The notes under the pieces: generated by a model
The model's database searches: none
What the model was told of the DNA's origin: nothing
The model's input: the letters and a program-made list of their open reading frames with translations, nothing else
Shown here: piece by piece, positions 1,490 to 11,449 of the stretch
Layout: each line of letters starts with the position of its first letter
Position numbering within the stretch: position 1 is the stretch's first letter
Program-made: the position numbers and the translations under genes
DNA from: Pseudomonadota bacterium
Lineage (GTDB): Bacteria > Pseudomonadota > Alphaproteobacteria > Rhizobiales > Xanthobacteraceae
Direction of reading: 5' to 3'
Length of the DNA: 13,077 nt
Assembly (NCBI GenBank): GCA_023391175.1
Contig: JAEWBL010000362.1
Span: 1 to 13,077 of the forward strand

Positions 1490-1535
1490 AAACAGGACCC
1501 AGACGGCCCGGCCCACGCCGGGCCGTCTGCTGTTT
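1490..1535 (+). terminator. Intrinsic terminator after the L,D-transpeptidase gene
   Basis: A perfect 12-bp inverted repeat (AGACGGCCCGGC at 1501-1512, its complement at 1517-1528) with a 4-nt loop begins 32 bases after the stop codon. An outer AAACAG (1490-1495) pairs with CTGTTT (1530-1535), which also gives a short T-rich end. The T run is weak, but the stem is very stable. Confidence 0.8.
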
Positions 1536-10100: not shown

Positions 10101-10127
10101 AAAAAGGGCGGCGCATGCGCACCGCCC
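10101..10127 (-). terminator. Intrinsic terminator of the small heat-shock gene
   Basis: Read on the minus strand, GGGCGG and CCGCCC form a 6-bp GC stem with a 10-nt loop that is itself self-complementary, followed directly by TTTTT. It lies 46 bases past the stop codon and separates the heat-shock gene from the dehydrogenase downstream. Confidence 0.85.
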
Positions 10128-10173: not shown

Positions 10174-10659
10174 TCAGGCCGCCTGTGCGGCGCTCTCTAC
10201 CGGCGATCCCTCGATCGTCTTGGGAGCTGACGCCCCACCCGCGATGGGGATGATGCGGGGCTTCTTGGCCTCGGGAATGTTGCGCACGAGGTCCACGTGC
10301 AGCAGGCCATTCTCAAGCACCGCGCCCTTCACCTCCACATGATCGGCGAGTTGGAAGCGACGCTCGAAGGCGCGCGCGGCGATGCCGCGATAGAGCACCT
10401 GGGCGCCCTCGGACGCCTCGGACGCCGTCTTCTCGCCCTTGAGGGTGAGGGTGTTCTCCTTCACTTCGATGCCGAGTTCGGCCTCGGTGAAGCCCGCCAC
10501 GGCCACCGTGATGCGATAGGCGTTCTCGCCCGTGCGCTCGATGTTGTAGGGCGGGTAGGTCGGAGCCGCATCCACGCCGCCGACGGAATCGAGCAGCGAG
10601 AACAGCCGGTCGAAGCCGACGGTGTTGCGGTACAGCGGAGCAAGATCAAACGTACGCAT
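10174..10659 (-). CDS. ibpA: IbpA-type small heat-shock protein (Hsp20)
   Basis: This 161-aa ATP-independent holdase binds unfolding proteins in the cytoplasm and passes them to DnaK/ClpB. The N-terminus ([20 protein letters not shown]) matches the IbpA/IbpB class A pattern. The alpha-crystallin domain spans about 36-127 and carries the conserved L-E-N-G-L-L motif (115-120). The IxI anchoring motif is I137-P-I139, and a variable Ala/Pro-rich tail follows. The family member is clear, but Hyphomicrobiales often carry several paralogues with names such as hspA-hspH, so the symbol is by similarity to E. coli IbpA. The ATG at 10659 has a strong AAAGGAGG (10667-10674) 7 nt upstream, which is folded into a hairpin. 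A heat-shock-like promoter and a three-hairpin leader precede it, and a strong terminator follows. Confidence 0.95.
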
Positions 10660-10660
10660 G

Positions 10661-10742
10661 GCATATCCTCCTTTGAAGCGACATGCGGGACCCGCATAAA
10701 GCCGGGTCCGGTCAGGGCGCCGTCAGGTCTCTGCCCGGCGCC
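10661..10742 (-). promoter_or_regulatory. ROSE-like RNA thermometer in the small heat-shock mRNA leader
   Basis: On the minus strand three hairpins follow one another. Hairpin 1 pairs GGCGCCG (10742-10736) with CGGCGCC (10722-10716). Hairpin 2 pairs GGACCCG (10709-10703) with CGGGTCC (10694-10688). Hairpin 3 covers 10686-10661: GCAU pairs with AUGC, then G-U, U-A, C-G, a single bulged G at 10679, then C-G, U-A, U-G, C-G closing an AAA loop. Hairpin 3 sequesters the GGAGG and ends next to the AUG. The strand facing it reads UCGCU, matching the U-U/C-G-C-U element with a key G of ROSE thermometers, which melt on heating and release the ribosome-binding site. The fold was done by hand. Confidence 0.8.
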
Positions 10743-10749
10743 TTTTCGG

Positions 10750-10778
10750 ATGTGGGTAGGCCCGTTTCGGGCGTCAAG
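10750..10778 (-). promoter_or_regulatory. Heat-shock (RpoH-like) promoter of the small heat-shock gene
   Basis: On the minus strand CTTGAC (10773-10778) and CCCACAT (10750-10756) are separated by 16 bp. The CTTG and C-rich -10 resemble RpoH promoters, although CTTGAC also suits the housekeeping sigma factor. The predicted start, near 10743, falls exactly at the first leader hairpin, giving a leader of about 83 nt. Confidence 0.55.
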
Positions 10779-10805
10779 GGGGTGCCCGGGCCGCAATCTG
10801 AACAC

Positions 10806-10838
10806 GCGATGAACGCCCCTGCCGGCCGGCGTTCACGC
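10806..10838. repeat. Inverted repeat between divergent ibpA and PepSY-like genes
   Basis: Arms TGAACGCC (10810-10817) and GGCGTTCA (10828-10835) match perfectly around a 10-bp centre. They extend by GCG/CGC with one unpaired base. The repeat lies about 65-95 bp upstream of the predicted heat-shock transcription start. There is no T run on either strand, so it looks more like a protein-binding site than a terminator. The binding protein is unknown. Confidence 0.5.
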
Positions 10839-10924
10839 ACCGCGGATAGACTTTTCCCCAACGACATCTGCTCCGTCCGCGGCGTCATCCCGTGAGGAGG
10901 CGGGGAGCAAGGGGAGGTCGGGCG

Positions 10925-11449
10925 ATGCGGGCCTGTGCGGCCGCCTGTGCGGCCTTCTTCCTGATGGCGCTCGCGCCGCCAACGTCGCGGGCCCTTGCCC
11001 AGTGCGGCGCCGAGCCCGCGGTTTCGGCCGGCGCTCAGACGGCCGTGCCGGCCAAGCCCCCGCCCCTGCAGCCTCCACCCCTGCACATGCATCATCCGCC
11101 GAGTGCGGCCGGGGCCATCGGCCTTCCCGCGGCGCCGATCGCGCGCGCAGCCTCCGTCACCGCGACCCAGATGCCGGACGAGGCCACGCTGCTGCCCGGC
11201 GCCATCGCGCCGCGCGCCTACCGGCCCTACCAGACCGCCCCCGCCGGCCCCCTTCCGCTCACCACCGAGACCGTCGCGCCGAGCCTGGAAGCCCGCGGCT
11301 TCCGCCAGATCAGCGCCGTTCGCCAGCGCGGCCAGAGCTTTCTTGCCGAAGCCACCGGCCCGCGTGGCGAGCGGGTGCGCCTGGTGCTCGATGCCGCCAG
11401 CGGCGACATCAGCGGCATGCAGATCATCGGCTCCGGGGGGCCGCGATGA
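10925..11449 (+). CDS. Small exported proline-rich protein with PepSY-like C-terminus
   Basis: This 174-aa protein is not recognised by name. Residues 1-25 form a signal peptide (hydrophobic core CAAFFLMAL, likely cut after SRALA), so it should be periplasmic. Residues 40-60 are proline-rich with the cluster H-M-H-H (54-57). The C-terminal part, about 115-170, reads like one PepSY unit: a helix (SLEARGFRQI) and strands (QSFLAEATG, VRLVLDAASGDISGMQII). PepSY domains often regulate proteases or bind other envelope partners. The ATG at 10925 is supported by GGGAGG (10912-10917) with 7-nt spacing and by the signal peptide that starts there; a GTG at 10892 would add 11 Arg-rich residues. It is divergent from ibpA. 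The hydrolase gene begins 86 bp downstream, and co-transcription is possible. Confidence 0.75.
   Translation: MRACAAACAAFFLMALAPPTSRALAQCGAEPAVSAGAQTAVPAKPPPLQPPPLHMHHPPSAAGAIGLPAAPIARAASVTATQMPDEATLLPGAIAPRAYRPYQTAPAGPLPLTTETVAPSLEARGFRQISAVRQRGQSFLAEATGPRGERVRLVLDAASGDISGMQIIGSGGPR

Follow-up and report, generated by a model that had tools for sequence, protein, structure and literature searches.

The 5' leader of an ibpA-type small heat-shock gene of Xanthobacter very probably (at roughly 92%) contains an RNA thermometer of the ROSE type. The gene is encoded on the reverse strand of a stretch of DNA of 13,077 nucleotides, referred to here as the window. This finding is right but largely expected, relatives carrying the same kind of thermometer before the same gene. 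Less expected are a bulged G in the two upstream hairpins and the presence of canonical ROSE elements before an uncharacterised non-chaperone gene in close relatives. A full-text literature search retrieved no ROSE paper on Xanthobacter, and the analysis adds a well-supported thermometer to this lineage.

The ibpA-type gene, its leader and the predicted temperature response

The gene product was assigned to the small heat-shock proteins by Pfam (HSP20, 1.9e-19). IbpA was the best NCBIfam model (2.4e-48) but stayed below its cut-off with 163.7 of 212 bits, and the nearest named protein, from Xanthobacter flavus, shares 96% identity. The features of the gene, its leader and the remaining window are as follows.

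10174..10659, reverse strand: hsp20/ibpA-type small heat-shock protein gene, 161 aa (Pfam, NCBIfam, protein identity)
10661..10686, reverse strand: hairpin III, predicted to sense temperature and to sequester the Shine-Dalgarno sequence (folds, pair counts)
10667..10671, reverse strand: Shine-Dalgarno sequence GGAGG (sequence; wholly paired in the fold)
10679, reverse strand: bulged G in the UCGCU strand facing the Shine-Dalgarno sequence (fold; sole bulge of hairpin III)
10688..10709, reverse strand: hairpin II, GGACCC/GGGUCC with an optional bulged G (10703/10702) and an inner GC/GC pair (fold; 3 of 7 pairs with two-sided change)
10716..10742, reverse strand: hairpin I, outer stem GGCGCCG/CGGCGCC (fold; 4 of 8 pairs with two-sided change across relatives)
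10750..10756, reverse strand: -10-like box CCCACAT (by eye; recurs at the same place in relatives)
10773..10778, reverse strand: -35-like box CTTGAC of an RpoH-like promoter (by eye; pattern recurs in relatives)
10101..10127, reverse strand: possible terminator 3' of the gene, an imperfect GGGCGG/CCGCCC hairpin followed by UUUUU (by eye; weak)
1500..1529, forward strand: strong 13-pair hairpin 3' of an L,D-transpeptidase-like gene (partial sX6 match, 23.7 of 40 bits)

The initial annotation had drawn the leader by hand as three successive hairpins, and this drawing equals its minimum-energy fold. At -44.4 kcal/mol the fold is more stable than all 200 shuffled leaders (mean -33.2 kcal/mol, sd 3.3; z -3.4 for the real leader). 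Hairpin III (GCAUGUC[G]CUUC AAA GGAGGAUAUGC) likewise forms as proposed: all five bases of the GGAGG (10671-10667) are paired, the sole bulge is G10679 in the UCGCU-containing strand, and the hairpin is closed by GCAU/AUGC at 10661-10664, one base ahead of the AUG (10659-10657). The helix ends ahead of the start codon, which is mostly unpaired in the model (about 0.85 at 30 °C). For hairpin II the script chose GGACCC[G]GC tttat GCGGGTCC; the bulged G (10703 or 10702) can be drawn in the structure behind the covariation counts, whereas the minimum-energy fold of the window has an 8-base loop instead. Hairpin I contains an internal GG/A loop in the window's genus and a single bulged G in most relatives.

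The two boxes were read as an RpoH-like promoter on the basis of the RpoH consensus. Inferred from this consensus, transcription is predicted to start at about 10743, directly 5' of hairpin I (10742-10716), which agrees with the earlier placement of the start at the base of the first hairpin. At the pattern level the boxes correspond to an RpoH (sigma-32) promoter with CTTG and a C-rich -10 box 16-19 bases apart, and a scan of positions 10500-11000 yielded no sigma-70-type promoter. The pattern CTTG-N16-19-CYNANNT, composed after the leaders had been viewed, occurs upstream of 88 of 109 leaders including three duplicates (base shuffles predict 0.54 of 109), and after removal of the duplicates in 85 of 106, the window among them. 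Promoter and leader would fit a joint control by heat-shock sigma factor and thermometer, as shown for Pseudomonas ibpA in a passage of PMC3669281.

As defined in a passage of PMC13104619, ROSE-type elements comprise two to four hairpins in a 5' UTR of 60-120 nt or longer, a 3'-terminal hairpin that occludes the ribosome-binding site, an unpaired G in the anti-Shine-Dalgarno strand U(U/C)GCU, and translation that increases with temperature as the hairpin opens. The window leader has three hairpins over about 84 nt, counted from the inferred start, and a terminal hairpin in which the GGAGG is wholly paired, in line with the pair counts; its anti-Shine-Dalgarno strand contains UCGCU with G10679. 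The opening calculated for this hairpin is small, as detailed below.

The following mechanism is proposed. Transcription from the heat-shock sigma promoter would yield the leader of about 84 nt, in which hairpin III presumably keeps the Shine-Dalgarno sequence closed at growth temperature, the bulged G and the weak pairs (G-U, U-G) holding it near its opening point. Heat would then loosen hairpin III, ribosomes could bind and the small chaperone would be made. Hairpins I and II, which are stable and conserved, probably aid the folding or the persistence of the leader.

In the nearest-neighbour model the mean unpaired probability of the GGAGG rises from 0.03 at 30 °C to 0.07 at 42 °C, and the Shine-Dalgarno sequence stays closed at every temperature tried. 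This small calculated opening would also suit a static hairpin that merely lowers translation, the heat induction arising solely from the RpoH-like promoter, which by itself would provide it. We consider this explanation very unlikely: the ROSE-motif sites of RF00435 loci likewise change little in the model (e.g. from 0.24 to 0.28, starting at a higher level), so that the calculation favours neither explanation, and the bulged G together with U(U/C)GCU is kept in 105 of 106 leaders, which plain occlusion would not need.

Opening of the Shine-Dalgarno sequence is predicted to cost 5.0 kcal/mol at 30 °C and 3.8 kcal/mol at 42 °C, the former being near the median of 108 orthologous leaders (4.95 kcal/mol). 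It also lies within the range of 1.8 to 7.7 kcal/mol (median 5.9) obtained at 30 °C for 21 ROSE-motif sites, which were found by pattern in the RF00435 loci L112-L131 and include identical values for L114 and L115 and, in L116, a third site that is a pattern match only. The unpaired probability of these sites is mostly 0.2 to 0.5, that of the window being lower than all 21 at 30 °C, and the E. coli ibpA leader has an opening cost of only 1.8 kcal/mol. Deletion of the bulged G10679 in the model increased the cost at 30 °C from 5.0 to 10.9 kcal/mol. A role of the unpaired G in the opening of the ROSE hairpin is reported in a passage of PMC13104619, and according to a section of PMC11342760 deletion of the bulged G lowers the induction of another ROSE-like element.

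Other candidate elements were considered in the window and in related loci. The possible terminator at 10101-10127 was not called by the terminator scanner. The hairpin at 1500-1529 is perhaps a terminator; its identity as sX6 is unlikely, the match being a bare hairpin that covers only 30 of the 342 model positions. A sub-threshold guanidine-III riboswitch match (8759-8695, reverse strand; 27.1 of 36 bits) lies antisense in a ThiS-like gene and is probably a chance match that is not conserved: none of 61 genomes had a match above the cut-off, and in a close relative (G042) a match located some 1.9 kb beyond the start of the gene reached only 16.7 bits. In 19 of the 39 related loci searched the mmgR/suhB sRNA (RF00519) was detected upstream of ibpA at a distance of about 2 to 3 kb, e.g. 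at L010:296-373 on the reverse strand.

Conservation in the order and relation to the Rfam ROSE model

A total of 111 leaders upstream of orthologues was collected across the Hyphomicrobiales, the paralogue L082 being skipped. For the motif count 106 leaders distinct in their last 60 bases were used; five identical leaders were dropped, the window's being identical to L083, and two short ones were kept. All but one of them (105; the exception is L027) have U(U/C)GCU no more than 32 bases from the start, compared with a mean of 5.8 and a maximum of 12 in shuffles, which here and for the promoter and bulge counts preserve base content only. The leaders of Ensifer and Sinorhizobium align with that of the window.

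In 33 leaders chosen as close and alignable, 97.6% of the cells are paired in the three-hairpin structure. Their covariation score of 0.215 was reached by none of 500 shuffles (0.126) and fell to at most 0.074 when the structure was slid. Two-sided changes affect four pairs of hairpin I and three of hairpin II, none being found in hairpin III among these 33 leaders, and the count of further pair types was reached by 43 of 500 shuffles. Hairpin III alone was assessed in a separate order-wide alignment of 59 leaders, giving a score of 0.242; none of 500 shuffles (0.187) reached it, and sliding the structure gave at most 0.115. The number of its pairs changed on both sides was reached by 28 of 500 shuffles, and its lower stem is unpaired in 16 to 31 of the 59 leaders. 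Relatedness can inflate such shuffle tests, while the slid controls retain it. Covariation in relatives, whose absence along with that of a covariance-model hit the initial annotation had named as evidence against its reading, is therefore present in both alignments. A chance folding of GC-rich DNA, suggested by the GC content of the stretch (0.66), is refuted by the shuffles of the fold (0 of 200) and of the covariation score (0 of 500), and its probability is practically negligible.

A covariance model (R1) was built on the 33 leaders and tried on 94 sources. The window is part of the seed and obtains its 82.2 bits by construction. R1 recognises the leader in further families of the same order. 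Of the 19 RF00435 loci supplied it matches 11 with an E-value no higher than 0.01, the other eight being weaker (up to E 4.4). Applied to 100 genomes with stricter filters, by which weak matches are lost with R1 and RF00435 alike, it gave 71 matches in 68 genomes. The ibpA place is visible in 80 genomes and carries an R1 match in 58; the other 13 matches comprise 11 in genomes without a visible ibpA place and two elsewhere. In the 22 genomes lacking R1 at ibpA the motif was found in all 21 leaders read (G014, which is L092, included; G090 left out) and the promoter pattern in 18 of 20. Since the leaders read in the missed genomes all carry the motif, the misses look like a matter of sensitivity and not like a loss of the element. 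The sole R1 match in E. coli (20 bits, E 0.29) falls short of significance and precedes ibpB instead of ibpA.

A match to the Rfam ROSE covariance model, proposed earlier as a check, was obtained only below the cut-off. RF00435 ranked first on the leader in a narrow Rfam search (21.4 bits against a cut-off of 45, E 0.22 for 171 bases), followed by the unrelated sRNA family P11 on the other strand (E 0.26, 14.5 of 70 bits). ROSE was not listed when the whole window was searched at E up to 1, nor was it reported for the window at the gathering cut-off. With its score below 45 bits the leader is filed as ROSE-type by structure and orthology and not as a member of RF00435. At the cut-off the public model also misses all 39 related ibpA-type loci searched whole (a subset of 80 related loci), all of which have U(U/C)GCU in the leader, at most 32 bases from the start. 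Because the same model is silent on these motif-bearing relatives, the failure of the window leader to reach the cut-off seems to reflect a limit of the Rfam model.

Of 100 genomes of the same family, 26 have RF00435 matches above the cut-off; of these 40 matches one lies at a visible ibpA place. Among the 57 RF00435 matches listed for these relatives, which were assigned to ibpA leaders and to the WASD genes described below by eye on coordinates, 11 lie exactly at the orthologous ibpA-type leader as judged by the gene's own place. One of the 11 is above the cut-off (G013, 45.6 bits) and the others have 32 to 38 bits. Two further matches (G034, G080) coincide with R1 matches in genomes where the gene's place is not visible. 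The leader is homologous to RF00435 through its relatives, orthologous leaders being matched in 11 genomes and R1 matching RF00435 loci. The initial reading of the architecture as ROSE is supported: the kind of gene, the motif U(U/C)GCU with its bulged G, the position of the promoter and the conservation across relatives all agree with it.

Bulged Gs in hairpins I and II and ROSE before a second gene family

The region upstream of hairpin III was scanned in 76 representatives of the 106 leaders (two short ones and three duplicates were dropped) for stems of at least four pairs with a one-base bulge and at least two inner pairs. At least one such bulge is present on the 5' arm in 72 of the 76 leaders and two in 50 (28.6 and 3.2 in shuffles), and the bulged base is a G in 113 of 122 cases, whereas no excess was detected on the 3' arm (24 of 76 versus 28.6 shuffled). 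An additional 20 leaders agree, with G in 26 of 31 bulges. The excess is weaker in 26 canonical or WASD-associated ROSE sites, of which 21 have at least one bulge (shuffled mean 12.6, maximum 20), the base being G in 20 of 27 bulges. Where the bulge falls on a GG step it can be drawn at either G, so that its place is ambiguous and its identity is not. The window itself is an imperfect example, given the GG/A internal loop of hairpin I and a bulge in hairpin II that depends on formation of the inner GC pair. Judged from these alignments and folds, a single bulged G on the 5' arm appears usually to be retained in hairpins I and II while the surrounding stems change. The pattern is partly implicit in Rfam, because the RF00435 consensus leaves a G unpaired in its own hairpin I.

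We know of no protein or small RNA that acts as a partner of the leader. That the leader mainly binds such a partner, hairpins I and II being the binding sites, would accord with their covariation and with the 5'-arm bulged G retained across the order, and the role of the 5' hairpins is described as not fully understood in section 24 of PMC3669281. The best-conserved part of the leader is, however, the Shine-Dalgarno hairpin with its motif, and we regard this explanation as highly improbable compared with a thermometer of the ROSE type. The passages on bulged Gs in PMC11342760 and PMC12857270 concern the Shine-Dalgarno hairpin, and the order-wide pattern in the upstream hairpins offers a defined target for mutation.

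In G042 and G074, which are among the closest relatives, RF00435 matches of 60.5 and 61 bits lie directly before a gene of 137 aa, whose product has no Pfam match up to E 1. It belongs to an uncharacterised family of 120-137 aa with the conserved motif EKRA...SWASD...E.AP.LR, here called WASD, which is present in 65 of 149 genomes and for which the AlphaFold model is of low confidence (mean pLDDT 65.4). Canonical ROSE elements directly before a WASD-family gene were found at the following sites, some of them in close relatives of the window.

L128:1494-1994, forward strand: canonical ROSE directly before a WASD-family gene
L127:1496-1993, forward strand: canonical ROSE directly before a WASD-family gene
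L126:1145-1605, reverse strand: canonical ROSE directly before a WASD-family gene
L129:1527-1969, forward strand: canonical ROSE directly before a WASD-family gene

Nine of the 57 listed RF00435 matches, in eight genomes, directly precede the WASD family. The motif was found by script in frame before the WASD gene in 8 of 30 loci, the script having missed L184, which is the same site as L127. In three genomes (G037, G071, G092) an hsp20-like frame is preceded by a ROSE match, and the WASD gene follows 500 to 620 bases downstream of that match. A further ROSE-like leader before a WASD gene (L187, G010:C90:67858-67945; 43.4 bits) has its U(U/C)GCU replaced (CCATGATCCAGGGAGG) and is possibly a natural variant without the motif.

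A 2014 review (PMC4166951) states, in the passage used here, that ROSE is always associated with small heat-shock genes. Excerpts of other work describe a ROSE type before rhlA (PMC13104619) and others before ABC transporter genes (PMC11342760, PMC12857270), so that non-chaperone targets as such are not new. Taking both observations together, there is about an even chance that ROSE in the Hyphomicrobiales consists of several bulged-G hairpins in series instead of a single sensing hairpin flanked by passive ones, with hairpins I and II possibly under selection for a separate role, and that it also directly controls the WASD family. If so, hairpins I and II might serve partial sensing, folding order or binding.

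Comparison with known systems

RF00435, the ROSE of the Bradyrhizobium hspA type, resembles the window leader in its hairpins and in the terminal Shine-Dalgarno hairpin with a bulged G. Its consensus helix runs through the AUG, whereas the terminal stem of the window is shorter and leaves the AUG free.

Among the rhizobia, the ibpA leader of S. meliloti is described in a passage of PMC2873474 as ROSE-like; the prediction dates from before 2010, and sequencing detected the transcript with only eight reads. An excerpt of PMC3989490 reports the leaders of the class A sHSP genes of M. loti as ROSE-like. As far as these passages describe them, they share with the window the kind of gene and the U(U/C)GCU/Shine-Dalgarno hairpin. 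They differ in the lower stem of hairpin III, which is GCAU/AUGC in the window and unpaired in part of the order.

The short ROSE-like ibpA thermometers of Pseudomonas, as presented in the sections of PMC3669281 considered here, are similar in their short terminal hairpin, the GC-rich hairpin upstream of it and the heat-shock sigma promoter, but consist of two hairpins instead of the three in the window. The ROSE-like and ROSE-G elements before ABC transporter genes (passages of PMC11342760 and PMC12857270) also have a bulged G facing the Shine-Dalgarno sequence; they precede other genes, and ROSE-G differs by CUGCU and two opposed bulged Gs.
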